Positions 1,001-64,000 of a stretch of 64,000 nt of DNA are shown here, one piece after another. The stretch spans positions 55,216,079 to 55,280,078 of the forward strand of contig CM049309.1 in NCBI GenBank assembly GCA_026874595.1. The letters run 5' to 3'. The translations under genes and the position numbers were made by a program. Numbering within the stretch: the stretch's first letter is position 1; each line of letters opens with the position of its first letter. A model generated the notes under the pieces. It was not told the DNA's origin. It searched no databases and was given only the letters and a program-made list of their open reading frames with translations. The stretch is from Sipunculus nudus (Eukaryota > Annelida > Sipuncula > Golfingiida > Sipunculidae).

Positions 1001-4000
1001 GTAAGCTAAGTATGGTTTATTTCCGGTTAGATTGGTATCGCCTCCCTAAGTCTTCAAATACCTGTACAATGTGAAATATTTTCAAAGCGCAAGTAAAATA
1101 CATTTTTATTGTAAAAATTACCTCAAGTTGTAATTAAAGTTCATGTAAAAATACAACTTATCACAGGAGAATTTTAGACTCGCAGGACTGGAAACAAAAA
1201 GAAAATAGGGGGCGTGGCTCTCATCCCCCTCCCCTTCTATTAGGGCTGGAGAGAAGAAAGGAATAGGACTCGTGGCTCTCACCTTTTTCTAGAGGATGGT
1301 AAGGTCATATTAGGTTTCCAATTTGTTCCTGCTTTATTGACATAAGAAAACAAAAATTATTTTATTGTAGCCATGTTCTGCCCCCTGCAAAACTGAACCT
1401 GTCACCAACCAGTCCAGCAAGGACCGCCTTGCCATAGGCATTAGGCCAATGTTGTTACATCTTTAGCTCAGCTGACTAAAGGTCAACTGAGCTATAGTGA
1501 TGAATGTTTGTCCATCCTTCTGTCTGTCCATTAAACTGGCACGTTTTGAAACCATTGGACCTATGAATCTGAAATTTGTCATACTGTTAGATCTCCCAAA
1601 AATCTCCTACCAAACTAAAAACTGGGTCACTTAGATTTTGTTCCTTTGAGAAATTTAGAAAAAAAAAACTCAATTATCCGTTAAAAATCTATTATAACAC
1701 TTCAGTACTTCCTAATATCAAAACATCTTGCTGGTCTTTCTTCATATTTACCATAAATATTTACCTGTATATGGCCTATTGACATGCTAGAAATTAGGTC
1801 AGTACTACAATATTTGTAATATTTATGGGGTCTAAACGCAATGCACTTTGTTAAAAAACAAGGAGAGATTTTAACTTATCATGATAAATATTAAAGCTAG
1901 GGACTTTTTTCCAAGCTAGCAGAAAGTTGCTAGCTAGAGAGAGAAATTACTCCACCATCAAGAGAGAGTGACTGTGTGTAGCAATTGTTTAGGCAGTTCA
2001 GAGATGTAATTGTCATGTAGACCATTCAGTGGCATTCACAATTTAAACCACAAGCCTCTCAAGTGTATTAGCAAAGCCAAGAAAGTAAACAAGATAGTAA
2101 TGGGATGGGCTTTTGTGTTACAAGAGATACAAGAGTTTAGGTTTGAAATGCAGGCTGTTTCTGGCAAAATAAATTATGGGCCTGACTTTTTAAATAGGTT
2201 ACCAGAGTGTTGAACTGAAATTTAACATTGTGGATATTTGTTAAGACAGACAATGTATATATATATATGTGGATATGAGTTGATGTATTGTATGTTTCCA
2301 CATAACTTGTAATGGATCGTTACTGTGTATTGAGAAAATACTATGTATTTCTTTTAAAGGGGGGGGGGGGGGTTTCACCAGAAAACAGTGACTAATAGTT
2401 ATTGTTATTGCATATTTAAATAAGGAATATATCATAAACCAGATGATTTTTATGCCCCCTCCACAAAGTGGCCGGGGCATATAGTTTTACCCATGTCCGT
2501 CATTCCGAAATCAAACAGTTGTACGGACTTTTTTTCGCAATGCCTGCAGATATTGGCCTGATTTTAGGTGTGTTGGCAGATAATGACCAGTTACAGATCA
2601 AGGTAGCGTTTTGCCCGGTTGACCTACTTTTGACCGTTTTACGGCTCCTAAACTTAGAAAAATTCATGGAAAATAGAAATTTTCATGACAAATACACATG
2701 TACGGACTTTTTTTCGCAATGCCTACAGATATTGGCCTGATTTTTGGTGTGTGGGCAGATAATGACCAGTTACAGATCAAGGTAGCGTTTCGTCCCAGTT
2801 GACCTACTTTTGACCGTTTTACGGCTCCTAAACTTAGAAAAATTCATGGAAAATAGAAATTTTCATGACAAATACACATGTACGGACTTTTTTTCGCAAT
2901 GCCTGCAGATATTGGCCTGATTTTTGGTGTGTGGCCAGATAATGACCAGTTACAGATCGAGTTCGTGTTTCGTCCCGGTTGACCTACTTTTGACCGTTTT
3001 AGGGCTCCTAAACTTAGAAAATTTCATGAAAAATAGATATTTTCATGACAAATACACATGTACGGACTTTTTTTCGCAATGCCTGCAGATATTGGCCTGA
3101 TTTTTGGTGTGTGGGCAGATAATGACCAGTTACAGATCGAGTTCGCGTTTCGTCTCGTTTGACCTACTTTTGACCGTTTTACGGCTCCTAAACTTAGAAA
3201 AATTCATGAAAAATAGAAATTTTCATGACAAATACACATGTACAGCCGTTTTTAGCCCTCAGCTCTTAGGCTGATGGGCTATTGTCGTCACCCAAGCTGC
3301 CGTCTGTCCATCTGTCTGTCCGGTGTCTGTCCGTCCATCCGTCCGTTCCGCGTCTGTTAACTTTTACCTTGTGAGCAGGATATCTCTAAAAGCATTCACC
3401 GTTGGAATTTTATTTCATCAGTGAAGATGTATATCGATAAAATCTCGGTCAAGTTCGAAGATGGGTGACCTTGACCCATTTTTCTACATTTTAGAGCTGA
3501 TTATAGCAAAACACTCAGAAGTTTATATCTCAGGAACCATTGTGTGGATTTTCACAAAACTTACTATGATCATTGGGACTGATGGTCTGTATGTGCTGCA
3601 CAATTTTGGTGGTGCCACCTGCAATTTCTGATTTTTTAATGAAATTTTATCGGATTTTTTCAATTTTGGCCTTTTGTGCAGGATATCTCCAAAGGTATTC
3701 AACACAGGAACTTCATTTCTTCAGTGCTATTGCTTTATATTTACAAAATCTTGGTCAAGTTCAAAGATGGGTGATCTTGACCTACTTTTCAAGGTCACAG
3801 AGCTTAGTATAGAAAAAAACTTAGGAGCTTATTTCTCAGGAAGCATTTGGTGGATTGTTATAAAACATGGTATATACCTCTCCAATTTAAATTTATAAAT
3901 GATTATCAACTATTGCTAATATTCTAGTTTCGCAATACAATGCTTACAGATACTGGCCTAATGTTTGGTCTGTGGGCGCATAATGACCACTTACAGATCG

Positions 4001-7000
4001 AGTTCTCGTTTCGTCCCAGTTAACCTATTTTCACTATATGACAGATCCTGAACATAGAAAATTTCATGAAAGACAGAAATTTTCATGAAAAATGCACATA
4101 TATGGACTTTTTTTCACAATGCCTGCAGATACTGGCCTGATTTTTGGTGTGTTGCTTGATAATGACCCTTTACAGATCGAGTTTGCCCTTGTTGACCTAC
4201 TTTTGACCATACAACACTTCCTGAACTTTAAAAAATTTTACAAAATTTAACAAATGTTTCTAAGTTGCCCCAGGTGGGGGCATTCGTGTCGTTCCGACAC
4301 ATGATTTTTTTTGTAATTTATTGTACTTTAATATCAATAATATAGATTATAGAGTATCATGTTTAAATGTTAATGTGAGGCCAAAGTTTAGAAAACCCAG
4401 GTGTCTCATTTGATGTCAATTTCAGTACAGATTTAGTTCTTTGGGAACTGATTCATGTTGAGGTCTTACTAAATGGACTGTTCCTAGCTGTTTCCACATG
4501 CACATGTAAATTAAAGTTTTCAGTTTAGTTGTTTAATCTTGAGTCCTGAGATACAAATACCTGTTTCACAGAGGTTATTCTGTTTAAGTTTCTAAAAGAA
4601 CTTTAATATTATTGGATGTTTCATTAAAGAAACCATGTTCTTAAACGCTGTAGGACATTTCATGGTTGTAAATGCATTAAATATTTAACATTGTAGGATA
4701 ATGATGAAGATGAACTGGAACCAGATGAATTGCCAGAACACAAACGCCCACAACCATCAATTGATTTATCAAATATTGACAAAACAGATCCTGAAAATAT
4801 ACTGCAGGCATCTAAAAAGGGGCGCACCCTCATGATGTTTGTCAGTGTGTCAGGTAAGTAGACAAAATTCTGATCTTTGTCAGTGTGTCAGATGGGGAGA
4901 TGTGAAACCTAATATTTGTCAGTGTGTTATGTCAGAAGACCTGAATCCTGATGTTTGTCAGTGTGTCAGGTCAGGGGACATGAATCATGTTTGTCTGTGT
5001 GCCAGGTCGGGGGACATGAATCCTGATGTTTGTCAGTGTGTCAGGTCAGGGGACATGAATCATGTTTATCAGTGTGTCAGGTCAGGAGACATGAATCATG
5101 TTTGTCAGTGTGTAAGGTCAGGGGACATGAATCCTGATGTTTGTCTGTGTGTCAGGTCAGGGGACATGAATCATGATGTTTGTCAGTGTGTCAGGTCAGG
5201 AGACATGAATCATGTTTATCAGTGTGTCAGGTCAGGAGACATGAATCATGTTTGTCAGTGTGTAAGGTCAGGGGACGTGAATCCTGATGTTTGTCTGTGT
5301 GCCAAGTTAGAAGACACAAATCCTGATGTTTGTCTGTGTGTCAGGTCAGAAGACATGAATCCTGATGTTTGTCAGTGTGTCAGATGAGGAGACATGAATC
5401 ATGTTTGTCAGTGTGTCAGGTAAGGAGACCTGAATCCTGATGTTTGTCTGTGTGCCATGTCAGAAGACACAAATCTTGATGTGTGTTAGCCTTTCAGTTC
5501 AGGAGATATGAATCCTGATGTTTGTCAGTGTGTCAGGTCAGGAAACATTAATCCTGATGGTTGTCAGTAAGTCAGTGAGACTTGGAATGTCAGTGTTTCA
5601 GATTGGGAGACATGAATGTTGATGATAATTAGTGTCTCTGGTCAGGTACAGGGTCACAGTCAAATACATATTTACTGTAGCTGCAACAAAGGTGATAGGG
5701 GGTTATGTGATCAGCCGTGTTTGTGTGTGTGTCAGTCATCTTTATATGTAATATTCAAGTCCTGGGTGGATTTTGATGAAATTCTGTGGAATGTTGGGCA
5801 TGTGTGAAATTTAATTTTTGGACAGTGGATTTATTATGCAGATCTGGATCCAGATTCATCCAAATTCACCCTTTTATGCCTGCCGTCTCATATGTTTTTC
5901 CTGTACAATATCGTCAAAATAAAATTTATTTAATCACTGCTTCCTTTCCTATCTTCACACCATTTGTTTTATTAAAATAAGTTGATAAATATGCTTCAAA
6001 CAGTGAAGTAACTGTCAACATTCATGGGTACTTTCAACATTCATAGTGTGTAATGGATGTCTTGTCATCATGGTGAGGTAAAATCGTTAGAATTTTGGTG
6101 CCATGACAATGGCTTCATAATCACATCTCATGGTCCTGACAAGTGGCTGTTTGCTGGCTGTATGAGGGACTACTGGTATATAGACCATGTGGCCCACTGC
6201 CACCCCCCCCCCCTATGACCTGTTGGTCACATTTATTTTAATGAAAGTGTGCAAGTGATACTGTCAATTTGTTTTGAAAGTATATGTCTTTAAATTATAG
6301 GAAATCCATCTGAGAAGGAAACTGAGAAGATAACTCAGCTGTGGCAGAGCAGCTTGTATAATGCTCATCTGGAAGTTCAAAGGTAGGACTGACGATTTCA
6401 CATCAGGCACAACAGTGATAACACCAAGAGAACCCAGATCTGCAGCAACAAAGAAATAAGCCTAATAGACTTCAGATAAGTCTTCTGTTTTAAAGATAGG
6501 ATTCATATGTCAAATGCTTCCTAAATAGCCTTTGGCTTTAATTTTCTAAAGTTTTAAAATAATTGGTCCAGAATCTCAACTTTATAAATAACCTAATTCT
6601 CTTATTCACATATCTTCAGTAATAAGATATGCATTATATCATAAAGAATTAAAATAAGGGTCTCTTTTCCATATCAGCTTATTGAAAGTTTTGTTAACAG
6701 AAGTTCCTAAGCATAGTCTGCAGTCTAGAAGGTGTATCAAACACTATAAATATATCTCTGTGTGTTCATAAACTACAGGTCATCACTCTTACTAAGTGTA
6801 TATTTTCTGCTTACAGGTATGTGGTTGGAGCAGACCGTGTACTATTTGTTCTAAAGGATGGGTCTAAAGCCTGGGAGATCAAAGACTTCTTGGTGAAACA
6901 AGAACGATGCAAGAGTGTCACGATTGAAGGGAAAGATTACTTGGGTGAAGGGGCAAAGAAGGTATGTTGTTGAAAGAATGTATGGAACAGATTAGATCAG

Positions 7001-33800: not shown

Positions 33801-36800
33801 TTCATGATCTCCCCAGGAATCCATGCACAAAGTAATAGTTTATGAAAAAAAGTTACCTCATTCAGTTGTCTATCAACACATGTTTGAAAAGTAATTAATA
33901 CATGCTTCTTTGGGCTGGTCCAAGGACCATGCTTTTAGTTGGTTACTGGCATATGGTTTAGCACTTGCAGATAGCTCTTCATGAAGAGCTCCATTGTCAA
34001 CAAAATTTTAACAATTGTTGTCAAAGTATACATGTGCTGATGCTTTGCCTTATTCGTGAGGTTTTCAATTTTGGGGTGATTTCTGTTTTGCAAATATTGT
34101 AGGTTTGAAACCCTTACAAATACAAAGCCCGGCTCAGTATTTTACATTTTGTTATTTACATATAAATAATAAAATTATATCTTGAATTTTCCTATATGTA
34201 AGCATTTTATTAGGAATCTGGATGTAATAACCAAATTAAATTTGGTGCTGTATTTAGTCAGAGGTTTTTGCTTGCTAGCATTAAGTATGTCCTCCATAAT
34301 GGAAAATGTGCATTAAAGGTGACCTGCTCAAAACTCTCTTAACTGGCTTTTTAGTGAATATGAGCATGCTATCTGTAGGTACAGAAGGGAGAAAGACATT
34401 TAAAAAGATAAAAGTCCATACAGAGAAAAACATGAGCTGATCACTGTGCTCAAGAGAAGGCTCATCTTATTAAGCATTCTCTTTTCATCATGTTTATATG
34501 CAAGTTTATGAATACAGATGGGCAAGTAATGTCAGTTGATGCCAGTTCTTATTGACAAGTTTTTGTATTTACTTTTCTTTTGCAGTATACATACATCACA
34601 TAGATCATCAGTATAACTGCACCCTTGTGGCAGGTGACAAGTGTGATGATGTGCTTTATTATGTAACATAGCAACCTCTGTATGACCTCTGTCACAGTAT
34701 GTTGTTCTAAAAGCAGCTGACAGGTGGCACCACTGTTGGTGAAGTAAAAGATCAGACAGGTCCCCAGGTAGTGGTGATTTGTCTGTGGTTTGTTCACACC
34801 ATCATGTGCCCCTGCTCAGGTGTTAGTGGCCACATTTTTGTCAGATCTGGAACGACTTCATAAACCATCCAGAAGAAGAGCAGGAGAAGCTACTCAAAGG
34901 ATGCTGTAACCATGGTGATGAAAAGGAGAAGGAAAAGGCTACTGAATCTGGTGATGAGGATGGAGATACAGACAGCTGGGAGGTTGTTGAAGACAAGCGG
35001 GCAGGTAGGGGTACAGAAAAGTACAGTAGAGCGCCGTATTTCCGAATGCTGAATTTCCAAAAATTTGTTTTTCCAAAATTTAAAATGAGGAACCGAAAAT
35101 GTATTCGTATTTCCGAAATACGTATATGTAAAAACCTAAAATGAGTATTGTAATAACGAGTCACGAGTCCTGCAGTCATGTGTTAAGCCCAGTGGTGACC
35201 CTAATTAATTAGGGTTGTCGCCGGGGCAAAGGTGCAAAAACTACCAATATCACCGCAATGCTTGGTTACCTGTACCCCTAGCACTTGTGTGTTATCAGTC
35301 ACATCTCGTTTGTACTCAGGCAAGCATAGTTTGTCGGCTGGGGACAGGATGTTATGCCAAATAACTGAGCAGTTTACTCACATCATCATTGGCGAGGTAT
35401 AATTCATTAAACGCTTGTGCTTGTTTTAAATGTCCCGGTCTTCAATTACGTAGATCAGTAAGAAACAACGTGTTCCTTGGCAATGTCATTTGACCTTTCC
35501 CTCCAGTGAATTTGATGAAAAAAAGAGCATGTACGTAGCCTAAAAGCAGGTTAGACTGATCTTTGCCAATTATGCTCAGCAATAATCCAATATTTTTATA
35601 CGTCCAGGTCGTCAATTACAAATATCGAAAAGACACACCGTGTTTCTCGGGTAAAATGGCATTATGTTAATCATTAACTGTCATATTAACTTGCTGCTAG
35701 ACCCTTGTCCACATTTCCAAATGTTCGTTTTTATGAACAAAAAGCTTGTCCCCCGACACTTTCGGAAAAACGGCGCTCTACTGTATTCTCAAACCATATT
35801 GTAGAGAATATTTTAGCTTTCAGAATATGTCAAGTGGTCATAGTGTTACTGTGTTGGTAATATTCAGAAAAAAACTGAAATAATTTGTAGACCAACACCT
35901 GAAACAGTTTTGAGACCTTAAGGGAAATCTTATCTTTCTGCTAATGGAATTTCTCAGATATTTTGCACATGATATCTACATGGCATACTTTGTTAAATTA
36001 TGAAATAAGATTTGGGGGTCAGTGTGCTTATTTTTGCAGTATTTGAAGTTCAAATGGACACTTGTGGTAGGTTTTAAATGATATTATAACTAAGCAGGAC
36101 CAAAGTTACATAATTTAGAAACTTCACCAATACAGTTTTCATGATATTCTACATTAACATGCAGGATTAAATATCAGTCTTATTTAAAGACAAAAATGTG
36201 TATGTGCTGGGTTAAATTTTAAAATTATTATGCAAAAATGTGAACAATTTTTGAGATTATTAGTTCAGTTAACCCCCCATAGGAAGTGCTGGGGATTGTG
36301 GGACAGAAAGCCAGTCCACATATAAATGGCTTCTGTTGTCATCAATATGTAATTGGCTAAAAAAATGCCCAGGTCAAAAGAAATAAAATATATCAACACT
36401 CAAAAATGTGGGTATATACTAATTAAAAGTCTTTTTAGAGTGACACTATCAGTGTCACTTACAATCATATGGTGATATTTATGCTCTGTTTTATCATCTA
36501 TTTGCAACTGTCAAAACTGTCAGTTGACAAGGTCGCTATTGGTAAGTTCTTGCACTTGAGCCTTTTCTGATGATATTCTGTTTGAAAATTTATTAGTCAA
36601 ACTGTGTTACTGATTATAAAATTAATAAATAAAGCTGTTCCACTGAGAATTCCCACAATTATTGTTGATCATAGTTATTATTCTCAAATGAAGCACTGAA
36701 GCGATGATCTTGTTCATGACAACAAACCTCACAAACAGTAAAATATGTAGCTTCATGACAATATTAATCCACTAGAAATTTTTAATTTGCATTGTCATCA

Positions 36801-38401
36801 ATAGGAGGCACAAGTAAAGTGTCAAATTCCCCCTTAAACATCAGTAAACTACATTTGATATGTTGTCTACAGAATATGCTCTTCAAGCAGCGGTTATATA
36901 CTGCAGTCATTTCATGTGTAACCGCTGCTTTCTATAGCAAGGTTCTCTGGGCAGGAATACCAGGGTGCTCACAGAGCACAGATTTGTAACCAGACCACTG
37001 ATATTACATTGTGCATCCAACCAAACTTTTAAACATGCTACACCCGCTCTGGTTGGTTTGATAACACCAGGTCTGGCATAGGGCCAAGAATCAGAGCAAT
37101 GAGAGCTTGCGTCCCAGTGAAATCCTGGTGTGATTGAGGAGCAATCATCAGACTGACAGCAGATGATACAACTGGTCAGATCAGTGGATGATATGTGGAG
37201 CTTTTTTATTGTCACTTGAATCAGGTCCCTCTTGTTTATTTGCAGTGCACCCTGCTTTCCCAGCTGAAGCCTGCTTTGAAAGGATTGATCTGAAACTGAG
37301 AAAGCTGTTGAAGAAGAAACAACTGCCGATGGTTAGTGTGTTCATGAGCTCTGCTGACTTTTACCTATGCTAAGCCGTATCAATATGTCTGATCATTGTA
37401 CATCAAGATTCCCCCATAGTGGCCAGATGGGTTAGGACTAGAGATTTCTTATTTTAACTCTGTGATCTTTAAATCAAGTATCATATGTTTACTTTCTGCA
37501 AGCCATAGATTCAAACAGAGTTTGAGCATGCTGAATATCAGGTCACTGAATATCAGCCGAGTTATAGGGATGTCACACTATTCACCCTCCATTTGGCCAT
37601 CAGTTGGCTGACACTTTCAAATGCTCCTGTGGAAATCCCTAGTAATAAATGGTATATTTATGCTATGTTGCGAGCCTTCTTTCCATCTGGCCCATCATCA
37701 GACACAATATCCGATCATGATCTACCAATGCATGCATACAACTTGGAATATAAAAAAAAGAAAGGAAAAGATGAAACAAATGTCCCTCTCTGAAACCCAT
37801 ATATCGTACTGATTGTATATTTTACTGATTCCCTGATCTCCCGGTAAGCACCTACAGCTTTGTTAGATCACCTAAAGCTTTGTAACACCCAGTCCCCCCC
37901 AAATGGTTTGTAAATAAAAACAATTAAAATTTAAATTTAAGTTTATTCCTAAATCTGCTTAGGTGCTGTATTATATGTAGATAGTAGTTGATGGATTCAA
38001 CAGCTGAAACCTTTAATGGTTTTATATCTTGTACATTGATTTTATTCTTGTTTTTCTTAAAAAAAATTAATATATTTAAATTTTTTGTCTGTTTTACTAT
38101 TGATAAAATAAAATATAAAAAATGCATAAGTATATAATATAGTAATATTTAATATATAAATAATATTAATAGAAAACTATTGTCAATATCAGTATTTGAA
38201 CAGTGCGCCTGTGCCAAGTTGAAACCTAATCCCCAGTCATTGAAGACCGGTAAATGGGCCTGACCCATCTTAGGATAGGTCTGTACCAATTACCAATATT
38301 GATTATTTGGTCTGACCCATCTTGCCATTTTGAAACCTGCTTCCCAGACATTGGGGATCAAATATAATATTGGCTTGATGGGCCAGATTGAAGATTTTGC
38401 G

Positions 38402-38467
<66 letters not shown>

Positions 38468-40317
38468 GACCAGATCCTGATCTGGCCAAGTTGAAACCTA
38501 ATTTCCAGTCATTGAAGACTGGTAAATGGGCCTGACCCATCTTAGGATGGGTCTGTACCAATTACCAATATTGATTATTTGGTCTGACCCATCTTGCCAT
38601 TTTGAAACCTGCTTCCCAGACATCGGGGATCGAATATAATATTGGCAAGATGGGCCAGATTGGAAGATTGTGCGCAACATATATATATATATGAAAGACC
38701 AGATCCTGATCTGGACCAGATCCCGATCAGGGTTTAGGCTGGACTAAATCCCAATTGGGATTTGGTCTGGACCAATCGCTGATTGGTCTAGACCAATCGC
38801 CAATTGGTCCAGACCACATCCAGATCAGGATTCTGACCAGTCCAAACCCCGACCAGGATCTAGTCCAGCCCAAATCCTGATACAGACTGTGAGTTGACTT
38901 AATACTGAATAATGCCTTCAGCACATACTTCTGATTAAGTTAAGGAAAATTCATCTCTAATTTTTTTGCCATGCTTAACTTTAATAAGACTGATACCTGA
39001 TTTATTTATGGAATAAAAGAATACTACTGACTTTTGTGGCACATCTTAACCATTGTAAAAATTAGAAATAAGTTAAACTTGATGAATAAAATTTTCACAT
39101 CATGTATGTATAAATCAAGATAATTAAATTCTGTTTAAGAAATACACTAATTTTAAAAATATAATTTTACATTGATTTTGTAATAAAAAAGTGCCTTATG
39201 AACATGAAATTAGCGAGTAGATATAGTCATGAGCCGGATCAGGGGTATGGGTAGCCATAACCCTCAACTGATTAGACAGGAAGTCATACTCTTTGTTGTT
39301 ATTTGAAGAAAGCGATTTAAGCCGGACTGAATCCTGATCAAAATTGGCAATTTGTCCAGATTAGGAACTGGGCCTTGACACACACACACTCACACACACA
39401 CATATATATTCCAATATGTTTATTTCCTCCCTGTATTTTCACACTAGAATGAAAGAAATGCTTTGAAAATTAACCCAAAATTTTATAACCAGAGAAGAAA
39501 TTTAAATTAATATATTTTGATTTTTTTTTTAAATTTTTTTCCATTTTTATCAGGGAATTCTACAAAATCTTGAGGAGGATGTGACTGAATTCTTTAAGGA
39601 ATGGCCACAGTCAGTCATGGTGTCTCAGCTGCCATCAAGCTATGAGCGTCTTCTGCTTCATGCACTCTGCCAGTACCTGAATCTATTCTCATATAGTAAG
39701 CTCACTTATATATATCCTTCTATATTTTTGAGGCGCAGATTCAACTGTTGGTTTGTGATCAGTTCTGGTGTATGCTTTCAGCTTTGTAAAACAATATTAT
39801 TTATGAAAGATAGTGAATTAAAAACTAAGATAAACTAAAACTTATTATATATATATTCTTGAGTCCCATGTCTTACTTTAACTCTACAGATTTGGGGGAA
39901 ATAAGTTTTTGTTACACAGTGTGTAAATCATAGATTAATTAACCTCAAAACTGGTTTTGAAGACAAAACTGTCACATTTTAACTCTACAAAAATTTTCTT
40001 AATTCACAGTATTTAAATAGTGACTCTTTGTTAACTTGAGTTACATAATGATTAAATCATTTCATTGGTTTGCTCATTCAGTGAAAAAAAAAAAGACACA
40101 CTTCGCAAATGTTGTGAGCACTAGTCAACATTTTAACTTTAGTCTTGTGTTGACTCTGGTCAGTTTAGTACTGGACATCATGTTAACGTCTATCTGGTGT
40201 ATTCTTTCAGGTTATGATGATGAAAAAGGTGCTCGTCAGACTCAGGTAGAAAATCGGGAAACTTCTTTCACACTTCCAGAACAGTCCTTGGCCAGTTTCC
40301 TGGAGGAACGACTATGA
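21717..40317 (+). CDS. R3HDM4: R3H domain-containing protein 4-like, seven exons, 290 aa
   Basis: Coding exons are 21717-21805, 32700-32869, 33595-33713, 34845-35004, 37246-37331, 39554-39695 and 40211-40317. Phases match at every junction and sum to 290 codons plus TGA (human R3HDM4 is about 268). Recognisable blocks in order: SPRKKARNWWYRYYRGKEAN (31-86 region), RRYDNW|NFLLELGE, FAELLMQNDKMEIWNDFINH followed by PEEEQEKLL, an acidic loop, AEACFERIDLKLRKLL, then the R3H segment SSYERLLLHALCQYLNLFS with the Arg-x3-His pair, and the C-terminal SLASFLEERL. The order and spacing match my recall of R3HDM4. R3H domains bind single-stranded nucleic acid; the specific function of R3HDM4 is poorly known. 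Exon 1 is assigned by a good donor and phase only and is the least certain. Confidence 0.88.
21806..23480. other. R3HDM4 intron 1, left part
   Basis: Non-coding. It contains AAGATGGCGGC at 23086-23096, a YY1-type motif whose ATG opens only a 9-codon frame. Nothing else recognised. Confidence 0.45.
23481..26080 (+). repeat. 2.6-kb dispersed element, family A, copy 2
   Basis: Collinear with 13681-16315 from the TTTAGCTCAGCTGACTATAA hairpin to the TAGGTCCCTTGTT end. The main difference is a short deletion near 24960. It sits in R3HDM4 intron 1 in the same orientation as copy 1. Confidence 0.88.
26081..26769. other. R3HDM4 intron 1, between repeats
   Basis: AT-rich unique-looking sequence; nothing recognised. 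Confidence 0.45.
26775..26950 (+). repeat. 5' LTR
   Basis: 176 bp, TGTAGC...ATTACA, about 80-85% identical by eye to the 3' LTR, so insertion is not recent. Confidence 0.88.
26951..27780 (+). pseudogene. gag remnant of the LTR retrotransposon
   Basis: The first frame reads APRLFHFNHAEQWPKWICQF, a Ty3/gypsy gag pattern, then breaks at a run of G near 27118-27129. Another frame continues with IYLMGDKVKEIF, and after a stop with EEHEPVDSFITDLYALAKYC and KLIRDKTVVGCLDSKLAERL, again typical of gag. A zinc-knuckle-like piece (YSHCGRSEAHPHY) follows near 27717. Stops and shifts show it is dead. Confidence 0.82.
27930..28170 (+). pseudogene. retrotransposon protease remnant
   Basis: The frame near 27960 reads FKIESGADVTAVPE, which resembles the retropepsin active-site region, but the usual catalytic D(S/T)G is changed to E-S-G here. 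It ends at a stop after VYVIKKPG. Confidence 0.6.
28225..28560 (+). pseudogene. start of reverse transcriptase, decayed
   Basis: Broken frames give ELSDYVKPYALSTPRNVPIW, then VTKELNQIEQQGVISKVD and GMVVVPKPNGQIRIC, the N-terminal part of a gypsy-type RT. The catalytic YxDD region is absent. Confidence 0.7.
29099..29267 (+). repeat. 3' LTR
   Basis: 169 bp, TGTAGC...ATTACA, directly preceded by the purine run GATAGGGGGG. Confidence 0.88.
29532..29546. promoter_or_regulatory. perfect ERE-type palindrome
   Basis: AGGTCACTGTGACCT is an exact IR3 of AGGTCA. It is inside the family B repeat; binding is not shown. Confidence 0.5.
30292..31182 (+). promoter_or_regulatory. regular array of AGGTCA half-site clusters
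   Basis: Clusters of up to three half-sites (AGGTCAAAGGTCAAGGTCA, a DR1 followed by a DR0 and containing TCAAGGTCA) start at 30292, 30437, 30581, 30728, 30873, 31017 and 31162, spaced 144-147 bp. Some are degenerate. These are potential nuclear-receptor sites only. Confidence 0.45.
31342..32699. other. R3HDM4 intron 1, right end
   Basis: Unique-looking sequence; the reading frames here carry no recognisable domain. Confidence 0.45.
32700..32869 (+). CDS. R3HDM4: R3HDM4 exon 2 (coding)
   Basis: Encodes the basic, aromatic block KKARNWWYRYYRGKEANLKK through RRYDN. The donor is CAACT|GTAAAT in phase 1. The acceptor at 32699/32700 is chosen by phase with exon 1; an alternative AG lies at 32707/32708. 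Confidence 0.75.
33115..33594 (+). repeat. degenerate array of about 45-bp units copied from the exon 3 acceptor
   Basis: Nine or so units precede exon 3, with starts near 33121, 33189, 33223, 33267, 33338, 33384, 33429, 33473 and 33517. They resemble TCCTTGCAGGGAACTTCCTC followed by TTAGAG. The real junction reads TCATTGCAG|GGAACTTCCTGTTGGAG. Several units (33267, 33429) keep a full YAG acceptor with a pyrimidine-rich lead, so they are potential decoy 3' splice sites. Some units carry extra 25-bp inserts (TTTGTGTGTCTTTGCA...). Confidence 0.82.
33595..33713 (+). CDS. R3HDM4: R3HDM4 exon 3 (coding)
   Basis: The acceptor is TCATTGCAG|GGAACTTCC and the donor is ATGGAG|GTAACT. It encodes NFLLELGENEELGELELADL and the FAELLMQNDKME end. 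The same acceptor-plus-exon-start sequence is repeated upstream. Confidence 0.9.
33714..34844. other. R3HDM4 intron 3
   Basis: Non-coding sequence, nothing recognised. Confidence 0.45.
34845..35004 (+). CDS. R3HDM4: R3HDM4 exon 4 (coding)
   Basis: The acceptor is TTTTTGTCAG|ATCTGG and the donor GGGCAG|GTAGGG. It encodes IWNDFINHPEEEQEKLL and a Glu/Asp/Lys-rich loop ending SWEVVEDKRA. Confidence 0.92.
35024..35783. mobile_element. MITE with pogo/Tigger-like inverted ends
   Basis: The 760-bp block begins CAGTAGAGCGCCGTATTTCC and ends GGAAAAACGGCGCTCTACTG, a near-perfect terminal inverted repeat, with TA on both sides (35022-35023 and 35784-35785). That fits a Tc1/mariner-superfamily (pogo-type) element. 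No intact transposase frame is present. It starts 19 bases after the exon 4 donor. Confidence 0.85.
35786..37245. other. R3HDM4 intron 4, remainder
   Basis: Nothing recognised apart from AT-rich sequence. Confidence 0.45.
37246..37331 (+). CDS. R3HDM4: R3HDM4 exon 5 (coding)
   Basis: The acceptor is TTATTTGCAG|TGCACC and the donor CCGATG|GTTAGT. It encodes HPAFPAEACFERIDLKLRKL and LKKKQLPM. Confidence 0.92.
37332..38214. other. R3HDM4 intron 5, left part
   Basis: Non-coding, AT-rich; nothing recognised. Confidence 0.4.
38215..38697 (+). repeat. two-copy tandem duplication of about 271 bp with TA runs
   Basis: CCAAGTTGAAACCTAAT...GATGGGCCAGATTG...GCGCAACATATATAT occurs at 38215 and again at 38486 with few differences. 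The first copy is followed by a long TA run (38405-38462), the second by a short one. Each is followed by GAAAGACCAGATCCTGATCT, itself palindromic. Confidence 0.88.
38405..38462. repeat. TA microsatellite
   Basis: About 28 TA units. Confidence 0.95.
38696..38890. repeat. cluster of palindromes
   Basis: A chain of short and long inverted repeats: CCAGATCCTGATCTGG, AATCCCAATTGGGATT at 38748-38763, the 54-bp palindrome at 38763-38816, and further GATCAGGATC-type repeats. All draw on the words GACCA, TGGTC, GATC and AATTGG. It lies in R3HDM4 intron 5. Confidence 0.85.
39380..39405. repeat. CA microsatellite
   Basis: A short CA run just upstream of R3HDM4 exon 6. Confidence 0.8.
39554..39695 (+). 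CDS. R3HDM4: R3HDM4 exon 6 (R3H core)
   Basis: The acceptor is TTTTTATCAG|GGAATT and the donor CATATA|GTAAGC. It encodes the R3H region with YERLLLHALCQYLNL. Confidence 0.93.
40211..40317 (+). CDS. R3HDM4: R3HDM4 exon 7 (coding end)
   Basis: The acceptor is TTCTTTCAG|GTTATG. It encodes the end of the R3H fold and the C-terminus ASFLEERL, then TGA. Confidence 0.93.
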
Positions 40318-54800: not shown

Positions 54801-57800
54801 TAAATCTATGATTAATATTGCTGGGACAGAGATCAGAAAACAATCCTTGGTTATAAGGACACTGCACAGTATATAATGAAAATACTGGTCCACAGGTACA
54901 CAGCACCACAGATAAACACATTCCACATTCATGCTAAAATAACAAAGCACATGAGCATGATCCTGCTTCATGCACACTGCACAGGACACAAAGCCATTTA
55001 ATCCAAGTGATTACATAAAAGAACAGGACACAGCTCTGTTTTATGCTCAAGAGGTGAATACCTAAAATCTTAAAGGTTCTAGCACTCCAGAGCCATTACA
55101 CAAAACCGTCAATAGGAAAAACTGCATACAATCATCCGCCAGAAAACACTATCCCAACAGAGCTCATTCAAACCATCCCAAGTAACCAGCACACAAGACA
55201 ATCCTCAATGAATCACATCACCAGACAGTTTACTGAAGCTACCACACAAAACCACTGAAAGGGAGCTACTACACTAGACCCTCCCCAGGGAGCTACCATA
55301 CTAGACCAACATAAGGGAGCCAACACCCAAAACAATTTCAAGGGAGCAATCACATAAGACAATTCCCAGGGTACAATCACACAAGACCATTGAAAGGGAG
55401 CCACCACACAAGACCATTGAAAAGGAGCCACCGCACAAGAGCATTCCAAAGGAGCCACCACACAAGACTCCTCCCAAGGATCCACTTCACAAGACCATTC
55501 CCAGGGAGCAATCACACAAAACCATTCCCAAGGAGTCACCACACAAGACCACTTCCAAGGAGCCACCACACAAGACTATTCCCAAGGAGCCACCACACAA
55601 GACCATTCTCAGGGAGCCACCACACAAGACCATTCACAGGGAGCAACCACGCAAGACCATTCTCAGGGAGCAACCACAAAGGACCATTCCCAGGGAGTAA
55701 TCACATGAGCCATTCCCAGGGAGTCACCACACAAAACCATATCCAGGGAGTCACCACACAAGACCATTCCCAAGGAGCCACCACACGACCATTCCAAGGG
55801 AGCCACCACACAAGACCATTCCAAGGGAGCCACCCCACAAGACCATTATCAGGGAGCAACCACACAAGACCATTCCCAGGAAGCAATCACATAAGACCAT
55901 TCCAAGGGAGTCACCACACAAGACCATTCCCAGGGAGCAATCACACAAGGCCATTCCAAAGGAGTCATCACACAAGACAATTCCCAAGAAGCCACCACAC
56001 AAGACCATTCCAAGAGAGCCACCACACAAGACCATTCCAAGGGAGCCAACGCACAAGACCATTTTCAGGGAGCAATCACATAAGACCATTCCAAGGGAGT
56101 CACCACACAAGACCATTCCCAGGGAGCAATCACACAAGGCCATTCCCAAGGAGTCGCCACACAAGACCATTCCCAGGGAGCCACCACACAAGAACATTCT
56201 CAGGAAGCTACGGAAATAATCTATCCCCTGCATACAGGACTGTCACTGGTAGGGTAGGGTCACAGCATGTATACATGTTAATAACTTCTCAATGTAGCAC
56301 TCAATAATAATTCCTCCAAACCCTTTAAAGAAATAAAGAGGACTGGGCAACAGCCAACAGAAAGGGTAAGATATAGCAAATGATATGAAAGTGTATGTAG
56401 TAACACATCCAGCCTCCAGTCCCTCTTTCTCATAACAAGCTGTGTTATTAATACACCATGAACATTTACAATGATAAGTGATGTAGGTACCAAATAAAGC
56501 AAATGTTAATAAAGACAAGATTAGTATCAGACAATAATGACAGCGGGCATGTCCTTGTGTTTGTAATTAGAAGGTCAAGTACATAGAATATGTACAAGCT
56601 AATTGGAAAATTTCAAACCTTATCAGAGCCCGTGACCGTATAATGTGGTGGCTGTAACAGGTTTAAATCCAAGGAAACTTTTAGTTTCTATGACAATAAT
56701 GAAAAGAGGAAAAATCTAATCATCTACCTAATGAATTATCTATAACAATAAACATAGTCATGTTAACTTGTTTAGTCTACATTATAGCGGGATTAAACAG
56801 AGTTCAGTATGGTTTTCTGTGCCAACTGTGAACATGTATGAAAATGGTTAAATTTATTTCATTTACAATATATGTCAACATTAGGTCTTGTTGCGTAAAA
56901 TACTCAATAAAATTGTAGTTACACACAGGAAGACCATAGAGCCAGACAGACTGCATAGTTAAGCCACTAAGCCAGACAGGTTGTTCAACCAAACTGACTG
57001 CTGGGCTGTGCAGGCAACCGAGCCAGACTGCATGCAGTGTGAATCAGGCTGCAGAGCTTTGGTGCAGAGCCAGACAAGATTGTGAACCAAATCGACTGCT
57101 TGCCTTCTGTTCCAGACAGGCTATTTAGCCAGTGTGCTGGTCAGACAGACTTCTGAGCCAGGCTACTGAACAGAACAGGTTGTTTAGTCAGGCTGCCAAG
57201 TCAGAGTGACTACTGAGCTAGACCCGTTATTGATTAGAGATGTTTAGCCAGACAGGCTGCTGATCAGAGAGATTGTTGAACCAGACACGCTATAAAAACT
57301 GCTCTGCAACCAGTGTCCAGCACAATAAGGTAAGTGGCAACAGTGATATGAATAATTGTAATTTGTAAAAAGGTAAACTGGCAACAGTGATATGAATATT
57401 GATAATTTGTACAGTTGTGAGTTACTGACAAGGATTTGTAGTTTTAACAGCAAATCAGTACATATAAATCAGTGACTTGTTAAAATGGAGAATCAACTAA
57501 CTGATAAATGATCTTGAAGTTAAAGTGTTTGGAAAATGAGTCTGATGATGTTAGATTGAGTTGAGTGGTACTGTAGATTGATGATGCATACCTCTCTGGG
57601 CGGGCTGAGTAGTCGGACTCATGCTGAGCGGTGCTGCTAGAACCATTTTTGGCATCTGATGCAAACTGATAGACAATCAGTAGGCAATCTCTACATAGCT
57701 GAACGATGCGACGACAACAGTTCAGCTCTGATGATGTCACTACATCTGTGCTTTTACTGAATATTGTCTCCCATGAATTTCTGCAATAAAAAATTATCAA

Positions 57801-60800
57801 CACTTTTCACAGAAAATATACAAGGTTATTTACCAAAGTATCTGAAAAAAAGATAGAGTGTGGATATGCAATATCCATTATCTTTTTCCTGAACCCAGGG
57901 CAAATTTTCCTGCTAACCTTACTAACCAAAATCAAAGTAAATTTCTGGGCCTGTGAACTGATGTGTCTTTGATTAAATTCAGCTATCAATTATTACCTTC
58001 AATTTGATTCTCATTCCAGTTATTGCAAACAATCATGGATTTCCTTTACAGAGGTAGAATGATATTTTGTCACACAGAAATATCTACCAAAAGTTTTCCT
58101 CTAAGATGATGCAAAGGTGAACATAAGTTTAATACCAATGCATTATTGTAAAGGTAAAGTAAAAGTTAAATCTGCACATGAATAACAGTACTAATATCTA
58201 ATGAAGGATACAAGTTGACATTCCTGGTTAAACAATACTGCTTCCTGAATTATGTATATTGTTCATCCGTACAGCATTCCTTAGGTATGAACTACACATA
58301 AAGAGTATGAAAATGACTGAACGTGCAATCAGTTAAATTCCCAGTGCCATAGATTACTGACAGGGACATGATCCAATGCATAAGTTATTTGATGCATTGT
58401 TACAGTACATTTTAGTTTAATCTTTCTATTGAAGATATTTATAAAAACTGGATGGAAAACTCAGGTAGATGGAAAACTTGACCAATCAATATGACCAATT
58501 TTATCATTCAGACTTTGGCTGAATTCAGTACAATAAATTTTTTTTAGCAGATGTCACTTTTTATTAAGAATGTTTCCTTAATGTTAGAAAAAAACAACAG
58601 AAATGATATGACAATGTACCCCTGAGATGAAAAGCAGTTCCACAGTCCTTGACCATGGCTCCATAGAAGGCGATTAAACACCCGACTAAATATACGATAC
58701 AGCTTCAGGTTGTCCATGTCACTGGTTCTCCATGTTCTCTGAAGCACTGCTCTCACATTAGACCGCACAATGTCGATTACCTATAGATCCCATACATAAA
58801 TCATTCATTAACAGACAGTTCAGGCAAAACCTGTACCAGTACAATATGTTCCAGTAAAGAACAATTCCACATTTCTTAATAAATGGCTAAAATAGTTAAT
58901 AATGGGTTATTAATAATAACATTTCAACACAAATGAGGAGAGAAGAAAAAGTACACAACAGTTATAAATTACTGTGGCACTGCTACTGACATGTCCTCTG
59001 TCTTGCGTATCAGCAGGTACTTCATCTAAGTATTTTAACATTATAAGTCATAATTTATTTTTTTATTATAATAACTGATTAACATCATCGTTTTGTGGCA
59101 GACTTGACAGGTTCCTATGTCACCATGGATAGGCATCCACTGATTAGACCATGAGAAGGAATCTCTCAGGATAACGAGTACTTCACCTTTCTCCTCTTGA
59201 TGGAGTCCAGTTTAACCAGCCAGTAGGATGCAATCCTTGGTTTATGAAACTTCCAGTTCTCATGTAACTGTAAGAAACACATAGACTTACTGTACGGTTA
59301 CACAAGTTATTATATACTAACACTGAAATAAATTCTTCTGCTGTATTTACAAAGCTCAGTAAGTGCAATGCCACATGATATTTTGTTAAAAAATTAAACT
59401 GATTAGCTAATTTTCCTTGATGTATCAATGACACCATATTTGTTAATTTTCCTGAATGAATGAATGAATGAATGAAAGCAATATAACGAAGTCATTAACA
59501 GAGCAGGTGGATGATCATGTCAATATAGAGCAGGTTGATGACCATGTCATTAATAGAGCAGGTTGATGACCATGTCAATAATAGAACAGGTCGATGATCA
59601 TGTCAATATAGAGCAGGTTGATGACCATGTCAATAATAGAACAGGTCGATGATCATGTCAATATAGAGCAGGTTGTTAACCATGTCAATAATAGAACAGG
59701 TCGATGATCATGTCAATATAGAGCAGGTTGATGATCATGTCAATAATAGAACAGGTCGATGATCATGTCAATATAGAGCAGGTCGATGATCATGTCAATA
59801 TAGAGCAGGTTGATGACCATGTCATTAATAGAGCAGTTGATGACCATGTCAGTAATAGAACTGGTTGATGACCATGTCATTAACAGAACAGGCTGATGAT
59901 CATGTCAATATAGAACAGGTTGATGACCATGTCATTAACAGAGCAGGTCGATGATCATGTCAATATAGCGCAGGTTGATGACCATGTCAATAATAGAACA
60001 GGTTGATGATCATGTCAATATAGAGCAGGTTGATGATCATGTCAATATAGAGCAGGTTGATGACCATGTCAGTAATAGAACAGGTTGATGATCATGTCAG
60101 TAATAGAGCAGGTTGATGACCATGTCAGTAATAGAGCAGGTTGATGAACATGTCATGACCATGTCATTAATAAAGCAGGCTGATGATCATGTCAATACAG
60201 AGCAGGTTGATGACCATGTCAATAACAGAGCAGGTTGATGACCATGTCAATAACAGAGCAGGTTGATGACCATGTCAATAATAGAACAAGTTGATGACCT
60301 TTTCATTAATAGAGCAGGTTGATGACCATGTCATTAATAAAGCAGGTTGATGATCATGTCAATACAGAGCAGGTTGATGACCATGTCAATAACAGAGCAG
60401 GTTGATGACCATGTCAATAACAGAGCAGATTGATGACCATGTCAATAATAGAACAAGTTGATGACCATTTCATTAATAGAGCAGGTTGATGATCATGTCA
60501 ACATAGAGCAGGCTGATGCCCATGTCAATAACAGAGCAGGTTGATGACCATGTCATTCATAGAGCAGGTTGATGAACATGGCAATAATAGAGCAGGTTGA
60601 TGACCAAGTCATTAATAAAGCAGATTGATGACCATGTCAATATAGAACAGGTTGATGATCATATCAATAACAGAGCAGGTTGATGATCATGTCAATAATA
60701 GAACCTGTTGATGACCATGTCATTAATAGAGCAGGTTAATGATCATATCATTAATAGAGCAGGTTGATGATCATGTCAATATAGAGCAGGTTTATGATCA

Positions 60801-63800
60801 TGTCTATATATATAGCATGTCGATGATCATGTCAGTATTATAGCAGGTTGATGACCATGTCAATAATAGAGCAGGTTGATGATCAGGTAAATATAGAGCA
60901 GGTCGATGACCATGTCATTAACAGAACAGGTCGATGATCAGGTAAATATAGAGCAGGTTGATGACCATGTCATTAATAGAGCAGTTGATGACCATGTCAG
61001 TAATAGAACTGGTTGTAACCATGTCATTAACAGAAAAGGCTGATGATCATGTCAATATAGAACAGGTTGATGACCATGTCATTAACAGAGCAGGTCGATG
61101 ATCATGTCAATATAGCGCAGGTTGATGACCATGTCCATTATAGAACAGGTTGATGATCATGTCAATATAGAGCAGGTTGTTGACCATGTCAATAATAGAA
61201 CAGGTCGATGATCATGTCAATATAGAGCAGGTTGATGATCATGTCAATATAGAGCAGGTTGATGACCATGTCAATAATAGAACAGGTTGATGATCATGTC
61301 AATATAGAGCAGGTTGATGATCATGTCAAAATAGAGCAGGTTGATGATCATGTCAATAATAGAACAGGTTGATGATCATGTCAATATAGAGCAGGTTGAT
61401 GATCATGTCAATATAGAGCAGGTTGATAATCATGTCAATGTAGAGCAGGTTGATGATCATGTCAATATAGAGCAGGTTGATGATCATGTCAGTAATAGAG
61501 CAGGTTGATGACCATGTCAATAATAGAACAGGTTGATGACCATGTCATTAATAAAGCAGGTTGCTGATCATGTCAATACAGAGCAGGTTGATGACCATGT
61601 CAATAACAGAGCAGGTTTGAAGACCATGTCAATAACAGAGCAGGTTGATGACCATGTCAATAATAGAACAAGTTGATGACCATTTCATTAATAGAGCAGG
61701 TTGATGATCATGTCAACATAGAGCAGGCTGATGCCCATGTCAATAACAGAGCAGGTTGATGACCATGTCATTCACAGAGCAGGTTGATGAACATGTCAAT
61801 AATAGAGCAGGTTGATGACCAAGTCATTAATAAAGCAGATTGATGACCATGTCAATATAGAGCAGGTTGATGATCATATCAATAACAGAGCAGGTTGATG
61901 ATCATGTCAATAATAGAACCTATTGATGACCATGTCATTAATAGAGCAGGTTAATGATCATATCATTAATAGAGCAGGTTGATGATCATGTCAATAAAGA
62001 GCAGGTTTATGATCATGTCAATATATAGCAGGTTGATGACCATGTCAGTATTATAGCAGGTTGATGACCATGTCAATAATAGAGCAGGTTGATGACCATG
62101 TCATTAATAGAACAGGTTGATCATCATGTCATTAATAGAGCAGGTTGATGACCATGTCAATAATAGAACAGGTTGATGATCATGTCAATAACAGAGCAGG
62201 TCAATGATCATGTCAATATAGAGAAGGTTGTTGACCACGTCATTAACAGAGCAGGTTGATGTCCATGTCAGTAATAGAACAGGTTGATGACCATGTCATT
62301 AATAAAGCAGGTTGCTGATCATGTCAATACAGAGCAGGTTGATGACCATGTCAATAACAGAGCAGGTTGATGACCATGTCAATAACAGAGCAGGTTGATG
62401 ACCATGTCAATAACAGAACAAGTTGATGACCATTTCATTAATAGAGCAGGTTGATGATCATGTCAACATAGAGCAGGCTGATGCCCATGTCAATAACAGA
62501 GCAGGTTGATGACCATGTCATTCACAGAGCAGGTTGATGAACATGTCAATAATAGAGCAGGTTGATGACCAAGTCATTAATAAAGCAGATTGATGACCAT
62601 GTCAATATAGAGCAGGTTGATGATCATATCAATAACAGAGCAGGTTGATGATCATGTCAATAATAGAACCTATTGATGACCATGTCATTAATAGAGCAGG
62701 TTAATGATCATATCATTAATAGAGCAGGTTGATGATCATGTCAATAAAGAGCAGGTTTATGATCATGTCAATATATAGCAGGTTGATGACCATGTCAGTA
62801 TTATAGCAGGTTGATGACCATGTCAATAATAGAGCAGGTTGATGACCATGTCATTAATAGAACAGGTTGATCATCATGTCATTAATAGAGCAGGTTGATG
62901 ACCATGTCAATAATAGAACAGGTTGATGATCATGTCAATAACAGAGCAGGTCAATGATCATGTCAATATAGAGAAGGTTGTTGACCACGTCATTAACAGA
63001 GCAGGTTGATGACCATGTCATTAATAGAACAGGTTGATCATCATGTCATTAATAGAGCAGGTTGATGACCATGTCAATAATAGAACAGGTTGATGATCAT
63101 GTCAATAACAGAGCAGGTCGATGATCATGTCAATATAGAGAAGGTTGTTGACCACGTCATTAACAGAGCAGGTTGATGTCCATGTCAGTAATAGAACTGG
63201 TTGATGACCATGTCATTAACAGAACAGGTCGATGATCAGGTAAATATAGAGCAGGTTGATGACCATGTCATTAACAGAGCAGGTTGATGATCATGTCAAT
63301 ATAGAGCAGGTTGACGACCATGTCAATAATAGAACAGGTTGATGATCATGTCAATATAGAGCAGGTTGATGATCATGTCAAAATAGAGCAGGTTGATGAC
63401 CATGTCATTAACACAGCAGGTGGATGATCATGTCAATGTAGAGCAGGTTGATGACCATGTCAAAAATAGAGCAGGTTGACGATCATGTCATTAATAGAGC
63501 AGGTTGATGATCATGTCAATATAGAGCAGGTTGATGACCATGTCATTAACACAGCAGGTGGATGATCATGTCAATGTAGAGCAGGTTGATGACCATGTCA
63601 AAAATAGAGCAGGATGATGACCATGTCAATAACAGAGCAGGTTGATGATCACAGCTGCTTTACCTTATCAAGTATATAATCTGCCTCCTCATCGGTCTTG
63701 CCGGGGAATTTGATGTGCATATCATTCAGAGACATGAGTGTCCTCCTTGTCAACTCCTCCTCCCACTCCTTGCCCTGCATCCCCATCATGGAGTCATCCT

Positions 63801-63812
63801 GGAGTAAAGTCA
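48686..63812 (-). CDS. unidentified large protein, last five coding exons (240 C-terminal residues)
   Basis: Read right to left the coding exons are 63812-63664, 59267-59187, 58780-58620, 57780-57592 and 48830-48686 (TGA). All introns are GT/AG and all phases join. The segment runs from VTLLQDDSMMGMQGKEWEEE through YILDK, LHENWKFHKPRIASYWLVKL, IVRSNVRAVLQRTWRTSDMD, LYRIFSRVFNRLLWSHGQGL, RRIVQLCRDCLLIVYQFASD and a Ser-rich tail ending SLHSYHGPS. It looks alpha-helical, rich in Trp and Arg/Lys, and the last 50 residues or so look disordered. No membrane segment or catalytic motif is visible. I considered large helical scaffold families (BEACH, RalGAP, LYST-like, EFR3-like) and could not support any. 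The gene continues past the right edge. Confidence 0.78.
48960..49500. repeat. dispersed repeat with DR1-type AGGTCA motifs (family C)
   Basis: Begins ACAAGAGCACTGCAACATGC and ends near GACGGGCTTATAATAACAAG. Inside are about three diverged blocks of some 130 bp with GTGACCTCTGACCTCATTAA. TGACCTCTGACCT (DR1 on the minus strand) occurs exactly at 49005-49017 and 49145-49157. Confidence 0.65.
49501..50682. other. intron of the minus-strand gene
   Basis: AT-rich; nothing recognised. Confidence 0.4.
50683..53000. repeat. 29-bp minisatellite, about 80 units
   Basis: The unit is GGGCAGCTCACAGGTCTGAG followed by GACTGACAA, alternating with a GTGGGGACTGGCAA variant. There are no unique spacers. It lies in the intron between exons D and E of the minus-strand gene. 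Confidence 0.95.
53001..55216. other. intron of the minus-strand gene
   Basis: Nothing recognised; the small frames here carry no domain. Confidence 0.4.
55225..56212. repeat. 27-bp minisatellite, about 36 units
   Basis: Units such as AGACCATTCCCAGGGAGCCA followed by CCACACA, with a CAATCACACA variant. Because 27 is a multiple of three, several frames stay open on both strands (up to 305 codons); they are repeat translations (HHTRPFPGS and similar), not genes. Confidence 0.95.
56310..57591. other. intron next to exon D
   Basis: Contains a degenerate AGCCAGACAGGCTGCTGA-like repeat at about 56930-57300. Nothing else recognised. Confidence 0.5.
57592..57780 (-). CDS. minus-strand gene, exon D
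   Basis: The acceptor is TTTATTGCAG|AAATTC and the donor GAGAG|GTATGC. It encodes NSWETIFSKSTDVVTSSELN through ESDYSARPE. Confidence 0.8.
57781..58619. other. intron between exons C and D
   Basis: AT-rich; nothing recognised. Confidence 0.4.
58620..58780 (-). CDS. minus-strand gene, exon C
   Basis: The acceptor is ATCTATAG|GTAATC and the donor TCAGG|GTACAT. It encodes VIDIVRSNVRAVLQRTWRTS through GLWNCFSSQG. Confidence 0.82.
59187..59267 (-). CDS. minus-strand gene, exon B
   Basis: The acceptor is TTCTTACAG|TTACAT and the donor GAAAG|GTGAAG. 27 codons: LHENWKFHKPRIASYWLVKL and DSIKRRK. Confidence 0.78.
59452..59476. repeat. TGAA microsatellite
   Basis: About six TGAA units at the left edge of the large array. 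Confidence 0.85.
59491..63652. repeat. 27-29-bp minisatellite with higher-order copies, about 150 units
   Basis: Units are GAGCAGGTTGATGACCATGT followed by CAATAATA or CAATATA. GAT/GAC and AATA/ATTA/ACA variants alternate. Blocks of variants recur in order, for example TTGCTGATCATGTCAATACA at about 61560 and 62310, 750 bp apart. The array fills most of the intron between exons A and B and stops about 12 bases from the exon A donor. Confidence 0.95.
63664..63812 (-). CDS. minus-strand gene, exon A
   Basis: The acceptor is GCTGTTAG|TGACTT and the donor GATAAG|GTAAAG. An alternative acceptor CTCCAG|GATGAC would start the exon at 63798. It encodes LQDDSMMGMQGKEWEEELTR ... KTDEEADYILDK. Confidence 0.78.
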
Positions 63813-64000
63813 CTAACAGCATAAAAACAAACATTCTTAGCACCCTTGACTTAAGGAACAGTAACCTATGGCCTCCATCAGGTTCCAAGATGATAAAAGC
63901 AGTCTGACCACCCAATTATCTGTGAAATACTGAATAACATAGCTCCATACAGTGGTGTAGTATACAAAGCCAACTGGCAAGCCATATCTTCAACAACCAG
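63813..64000 (-). other. intron upstream of exon A
   Basis: Non-coding to the window edge; earlier exons of this gene lie outside. Confidence 0.4.

Follow-up and report, generated by a model that had tools for sequence, protein, structure and literature searches.

Introduction

Tandem duplication is said to be a source of introns, and Rogers (1989) and Zhuo et al (2007) are cited for this idea. According to two reports, duplicated AG|GT sites can make introns, with examples in Drosophila and in human genes, and a single duplication then turns exon into intron (PMC2891723, PMC2812944). In human segmental duplications, the second of these reports describes internal tandem repeats at exon-intron boundaries, with units of about 30 bp on average, that vary between recent paralogues and create introns or longer exons (PMC2812944). 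The human gene IFI6 carries a minisatellite on the donor of one of its exons, and two downstream units are reported to be in use as splice donors (PMC4526556). We found no genome-wide account of junction-seeded arrays in the open-access literature searched.

Here we describe an array of this known kind that opens intron 2 of a MESD gene, for which human IFI6 is the closest precedent; what stands out is how often such arrays occur in this genome. In both IFI6 and MESD, a minisatellite lies on an exon's donor and the units carry donor sequence; in IFI6, however, downstream donors are reported to be used, whereas 18 of the 19 MESD copies are without GTAAG and use of a downstream donor would meet a stop codon. 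In the human segmental duplications, the boundary units are likewise of minisatellite size, but MESD is a single-copy gene whose copies lie within the intron. AG|GT junctions are copied in intron gain by tandem duplication as they are in MESD, but in MESD the junction has been copied many times into the intron. We consider it very probable that the MESD array is an intronic minisatellite that arose by tandem duplication across the splice junction, that it has been kept because the proximal donor is the one used, and that it is one case of a recurrent class.

Results

MESD intron 2 opens with copies of its own splice junction

The window, that is, the whole 64-kb stretch of DNA that was analysed (G000:C4:55216079-55280078), belongs to an assembly of 1.43 Gb in 153 contigs. 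The initial annotation had named the gene at its start MESD, and the identification holds: the best match is to the solved MESD protein (E 2.8e-50), followed by solved Boca (5.1e-33), and only MESD exons 2, 3, and 4 were matched in a protein search of the assembly. The features of the locus are collected in Table 1. Four tandem 180-bp copies with 95% matches also lie at 2520-3243, between the likely exon 1 and exon 2.

Intron 2 is 1447 bp long, and the array occupies just its first half. Tandem Repeats Finder reports it at 4833-5575 with a unit of 39, 19.5 copies, and 81% matches; by alignment we count 19 units, spaced 38 bp once and afterwards 36 or 39 bp, in agreement with the roughly 20 tandem junction copies of 36 or 39 bp that had been described at the opening of this intron. 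The span of 4832-5620 given for it was too short, since decayed units reach about 5650. With head-to-tail units of this length and number, the array falls within the definition of a minisatellite (units of roughly 10-100 bp), and its structure is that of the IFI6 type, the unit consisting of exon end plus donor and the array beginning at the exon.

That the copies derive from the junction itself had been proposed from the letters alone, and self-alignment against shuffled sequence bears this out. Exon 2 ends in 24 nt that recur without a difference (24/24) in the unit at 5171, and at least 18/24 is reached at 19 places in the intron; 500 dinucleotide-shuffled versions of the intron gave 19/24 at best (mean 15.6), and five other exon stretches scored 12-16 against the real intron. 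The 18-nt consensus of units 1-18 equals the end of exon 2 exactly, and all 18 exon-derived nucleotides are kept in 6 of the 19 downstream units. Relative to the unit consensus, there are 23/324 substitutions in the exon-derived part and 41/360 in the intron-derived part. The end of exon 2 codes LMMFVSVS, the counterpart of LMMFVTVS in solved MESD; because this segment is conserved in the solved protein, the exon is the likely source of the array. Judged by register, contiguity, the 24/24 identity, and the protein-constrained exon end, seeding of the array by the exon 2/intron 2 junction is well supported, and exon-to-array is the simplest and likelier direction. The two units adjoining the exon (u01 and u02) are, together with u04, u17, and u19, the most diverged from the exon unit.

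The array occurs at one place only in a DNA search of the 1.43 Gb assembly, a search that skips common words. The exact 20-mer TGTTTGTCAGTGTGTCAGGT has six occurrences in the genome, one in MESD exon 2 and five in the units. When up to two mismatches are allowed, the same 20-mer is found at 198 places compared to 19 for its control, so that part of the MESD unit consists of a phrase with many occurrences in this genome; the first 100 of the 198 near-matches include the MESD array, GT- or TGTC-rich look-alikes, and a separate array on C2. This last array (G000:C2:4895270-4897595) is unrelated; its unit, TGTTTGTTTGTGTGTCAGGT, differs from the MESD unit core by two mismatches.

Table 1 Features of the MESD locus and seeded arrays elsewhere in the genome (positions are those of the window).
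Feature	Position or locus	Strand	Basis
MESD exon 2	4697-4853	+	Translation, match to solved MESD
Exonic part of repeat unit, last 24 nt of MESD exon 2, TCATGATGTTTGTCAGTGTGTCAG	4830-4853	+	Matches to array
Authentic 5' splice site GTAAGT, MESD exon 2	4854-4859	+	Strongest U1 pairing among 175 GT sites in 4700-6298
In-frame TAG, reached by any transcript with a downstream donor	4859-4861	+	Sequence reading
19 tandem units from exon 2/intron 2 junction, nearly all 36 or 39 bp	4874-5596	+	Tandem Repeats Finder, alignment
Unit 15; donor at 5420, CAG|GTAAGG	5402-5440	+	Ranks second in U1 match among 175 GT sites
Decayed distal units	5597-5650	+	Sequence reading
MESD exon 3	6301-6382	+	Phase 1 join to exon 2 (TCA G|GA AAT); translation, match to solved MESD
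MESD exon 4	from 6817	+	Translation
Clear seeded donor arrays, CAGGTAAGT	L006-L011, L015, L016, L018		By eye and alignment
Clear seeded donor arrays, CAGGTGAGT	L023-L026, L028, L033, L036, L053, L054		By eye and alignment
Probable seeded donor arrays (4)	L017, L021, L022, L034		
Donor array, ABC_membrane	L009		Pfam E ≤ 0.006, under Pfam's own cut-off
Donor array, 3HCDH_N	L011		Pfam E ≤ 0.006
Donor array, Thioredoxin	L018		Pfam E ≤ 0.006
Donor array, LRR	L023		Pfam E ≤ 0.006
Donor array, Kunitz	L024		Pfam E ≤ 0.006
Donor array, Peptidase_M1	L026		Pfam E ≤ 0.006
Donor array, Tfb2	L033		Pfam E ≤ 0.006
Donor array, Beta-lactamase	L036		Pfam E ≤ 0.006, under Pfam's own cut-off
Donor array, PID	L054		Pfam E ≤ 0.006, under Pfam's own cut-off
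Exon-start array	L042		COR-A, E 9e-5
Exon-start array	L045		By eye; neither Pfam nor PDB gave a relevant match
Exon-start array	L097		MMS19, E 4.4e-13
Exon-start array	L100		DOCK, 3.9e-31
Exon-start array	L102		By eye; no Pfam match
Exon-start array	L103		USP39, PDB match 1.2e-15; Pfam UCH 0.061

Downstream donors in MESD lead into a stop codon

As had been noted, most MESD copies are without the donor: GT is kept in 15 of the 19 downstream units and GTAAG in a single one, and the donor position reads GTCAGG in nine, GTCAGA in three, GTCGGG, GTTAGA, and GTAAGG in one each, with no GT in four. The near-consensus copy reported at 5407 is present, but its donor lies at 5420. We calculated pairing with the 5' end of U1; the energies are -13.7 kcal/mol for the true donor, -11.5 for 5420, -8.6 for 6073, and -7.4 for typical GTCAGG units.

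Read-through from exon 2 gives S-G-K-stop (TCA-GGT-AAG-TAG). Because the TAG is in frame, every alternative exon end would be truncated, and no longer MESD would come from a downstream donor; examined for frame-keeping as in the IFI6 type, the downstream donors of MESD run into this stop. The idea that the copies permit variable exon ends finds no support here, nor in the unit lengths, which are not biased toward multiples of three across the seeded arrays described below. The accompanying idea, that copies serve as decoys for U1, is unsupported as an account of splicing, although the pairing energy at 5420 makes decoy action there possible. Judged from the sequence, then, neither a decoy role nor a role in variable exon ends is supported for the MESD copies.

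Donor-motif arrays recur elsewhere in the genome

We searched the genome for three perfect donor motifs spaced 15-45 bases apart, with the reversed motif as the control. The CAGGTAAGT triple pattern yields 393 matches compared to 128 for its reverse, corresponding, among the matches listed on contigs C1-C4, to 13 and 3 distinct arrays; the CAGGTGAGT triple pattern yields 453 compared to 53, or 22 and 5 arrays among the matches listed from C1 to C8:40 Mb. Single motifs number 15,335 compared to 12,947 reversed for CAGGTAAGT and 11,051 compared to 6,480 for CAGGTGAGT, and after correction for these single counts donor arrays remain in 2.3 to 3.7 fold excess. A binomial test gives p 0.024 for CAGGTAAGT and 0.033 for CAGGTGAGT, the latter becoming 0.056 with a dispersed family of three counted once; both donors pooled, with that family counted once, give 0.005. 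The enrichment of donor arrays over the reversed-motif control is modest. Three of the loci (L029, L032, and L035, on C4, C5, and C6) share a near-identical unit, GTGAGTGATCATCTCTGATTATGCTTACAG, a dispersed satellite with an acceptor-like and a donor-like motif.

We fetched the starts of 36 arrays, 14 for CAGGTAAGT (L005-L018) and 22 for CAGGTGAGT (L019-L038, L053, L054), and called an array seeded when the end of an open coding exon lay inside the unit; these calls were made by eye and alignment, mostly by eye, and were not blind. Eighteen of the 36 clearly start at the end of a coding exon (9/14 for CAGGTAAGT and 9/22 for CAGGTGAGT). Of the four probable cases, L021 is graded as just probable because it is without a Pfam match and fails the coding score. 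No coding exon was seen by eye at the start of the other 14. The Pfam search covered the 22 clear and probable arrays (10 of the 14 for CAGGTAAGT and 12 of the 22 for CAGGTGAGT); nine had a match at E ≤ 0.006, and in the remaining 13 there was none at this level, the best being PH at 0.023 (L008).

The copy consensus equals the last 15 exon nucleotides in 15 of the 18 donor arrays measured, namely those with at least three copies (L007 has too few, and L017, L022, and L034 were left out). In these 18 arrays, GT is present in 186 and GGTRAG in 149 of 214 downstream copies, a count that covers the fetched array starts and copies with at least 14/24 identity to the junction, in arrays picked for perfect donors. 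Since 149 of the 214 copies keep GGTRAG, strong spare donors are apparently tolerated, and loss of the donor would not be needed for tolerance; from the sequences, splicing in this genome seems able to cope with a large number of spare sites. We draw nothing from the observation that donor positions are less diverged (Wilcoxon p 0.001, 18 arrays), which might have been read as selection to keep or lose donors, because the set is biased: arrays were picked for perfect donors and copies below 14/24 went uncounted.

Unit length is a multiple of three in 8 of 29 seeded arrays (22 donor arrays, 6 acceptor arrays, and MESD; 4 of them only probable), which is the chance level, so translation of the extra units is not favoured. 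As units that keep the frame are not enriched, we discarded the thought that they might point to variable exon ends.

Array starts are more often coding than single donor sites

For a base rate, we took the first 20 single CAGGTAAGT sites listed on C1, excluding a 20-match array cluster at 2.460-2.462 Mb; some of the 20 proved to lie within arrays. Four were judged coding (L061, L067, L072, and L073), none of these four with a relevant Pfam match, and an automated coding score passes three sites. By this score, 19/36 array starts and 3/20 singles are coding (Fisher p 0.005); by eye, the figures are 18/36 and 4/20 (p 0.026), or 22/36 for the arrays when the probable cases are included (p 0.003). 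The cut-off of 5, chosen after the scores were known, is passed by 13 of 158 reverse-strand sites, and the single CAGGTAAGT sites show no difference from this reverse-strand null (p 0.26). The score uses assumed amino-acid frequencies, and its training exons include some of the arrays, each left out in turn, while MESD exon 2 dropped out. The score misses L009 and L024 despite their Pfam support, lets through L031, judged non-exonic, and for L006 favours a frame other than the one judged coding; it is weak as evidence.

One of the single sites, L067, ends an exon, and its 53-bp junction unit is met again 9 and 16 kb downstream (L066 and L065), where 27-29 of 30 exon-end letters agree. The interval G000:C1:1777019-1794090 is perhaps a very long junction-seeded array.

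Exon starts seed arrays as well

At the other end of the intron, three copies of the acceptor motif TTTTTNCAGG give 75 matches compared to 11 for the control, with 49,415 and 55,609 singles; there are 14 such arrays in the whole genome, and two of them are seeded by an exon start (L042 and L045). The looser motif TTTTNCAGG picks out 11 places from C1 to C2:4.57 Mb, four of them exon-seeded; L039 is common to both sets, and at one place (L101) Tandem Repeats Finder reports no array. Array matches for TTTTNCAGG show no excess over the control (586 compared to 881). Database matches support four of the six seeded acceptor arrays (L042, L097, L100, and L103). Among 20 single TTTTTNCAGG sites, taken as every fifth listed, none is clearly an exon start, and nine lie in one dispersed repeat. 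The acceptor side is a set of cases, not a measured enrichment. On C1 alone, three arrays are seeded at CAGGTAAGT donors and three at acceptors. An apparent preponderance of donor over acceptor arrays, as if acceptor arrays were selected against, disappeared with the TTTTNCAGG scan, and so the idea of counter-selection was dropped.

Other repeats in the window

Eight minisatellites (units of 15-80 bp, at least three copies) make up 9.5 kb, or about 15%, of the 64-kb window. A candidate for a second seeded case, a 28-bp array of about 150 copies at 59491-63648 on the minus strand, begins about 12 nt past a possible donor, AAG|GTAAAG, of the minus-strand open frame 63652-63830; we rejected it, since its unit is unlike the sequence with which this frame ends and the frame itself has no Pfam or PDB match. 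A 27-bp array of 36 copies at 55237-56208 is open in several frames, in one of them for 330 codons. Open frames at 34827-39835 match R3H-associated and R3H domains and are probably exons of one gene.

Discussion

The MESD array could have formed in a few steps. About 38 bp, some 24 nt from exon 2 and some 14 nt from intron 2, would have been duplicated, and the duplicated junction would then have been amplified and partly homogenised inside intron 2. When a junction is duplicated in this way, one copy would stay in place and the others would fall in the intron, at either of its ends. The exon-proximal donor would remain in use, the likely rule being exon definition, so the extra copies would leave with the intron, probably without any function; most of the MESD copies would later have lost the donor. 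For seeded arrays to last, splicing should normally have to settle on the site nearest the exon, as exon definition would allow and intron definition would not.

It is quite plausible, though we lean against it, that junction seeding is no commoner than the random birth of minisatellites in a repeat-rich genome and that splice sites are irrelevant to it. The genome is so rich in minisatellites, which fill about 15% of the window, that random placement would yield some junction cases; donors and acceptors both seed arrays, the 14 donor-motif arrays without an exon at their start fit such a view, and so does the looser acceptor motif with its fewer array matches than the control. Against this stand the ratios of donor arrays to reversed-motif arrays (13:3 and 22:5), which go beyond what the single-motif counts give, and the excess of coding starts in arrays over single sites, both by score and by eye. 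We rate as somewhat less likely than not the opposite position, that exon-intron junctions are preferred sites of minisatellite seeding in this animal, where the proximal site would win and the arrays would be neutral passengers or spare sites that buffer mutation.

The copies in MESD might instead be active, the donor at 5420 or U1 bound to the array slowing or diverting splicing toward a truncated, unproductive message that tunes expression. The second-best U1 match in the region and the reported use of downstream units as donors in IFI6 speak for this, and the unit lengths, which count against translated isoforms, do not count against unproductive splicing; but with GTAAG in just one of 19 units and any product meeting the TAG, we consider such a role improbable. 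It is very unlikely that tandem duplication created intron 2 itself, as in the exon-duplication model of intron gain by duplicated AG|GT sites: the array fills only half of the intron, copies of the exon segment are not found at both of its ends, and beyond 5552 there is no match of at least 17/24 to the exon end, only an 18-nt GT-rich look-alike at 5718-5735. That the array came first and then extended into the end of the exon, or homogenised it, is extremely unlikely, for although gene conversion within arrays is common, the copies agree with the exon at synonymous sites too, and phrases like the unit core abound in the genome, the exon end is conserved with solved MESD, the array is found nowhere else, and u01 and u02, which adjoin the exon, have diverged from it instead of being homogenised with it.

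Duplication across the junction, with the proximal donor in use, remains our preferred reading, and the question of how often it has happened can be approached from the counts. Eight clear cases for CAGGTAAGT lie on 28% of the genome, which extrapolates to about 28 in all. If the CAGGTAAGT type were to make up 2-3% of donors, then for all donor types together the number of introns that open with stacks of their own splice sites would be of the order of a thousand, in addition to those with such stacks at the acceptor end; if true, this genome would be a natural competition experiment among adjacent, near-identical splice sites. The choice that the spliceosome makes between near-identical sites has mostly been studied in constructed reporters. 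The two dozen genes examined here, with natural donor or acceptor arrays at both ends of introns, make the exon-proximal rule testable by RNA reads. Seeded arrays would also be one route of intron growth, and they are a warning that gene prediction has to reckon with false splice sites in stacks.
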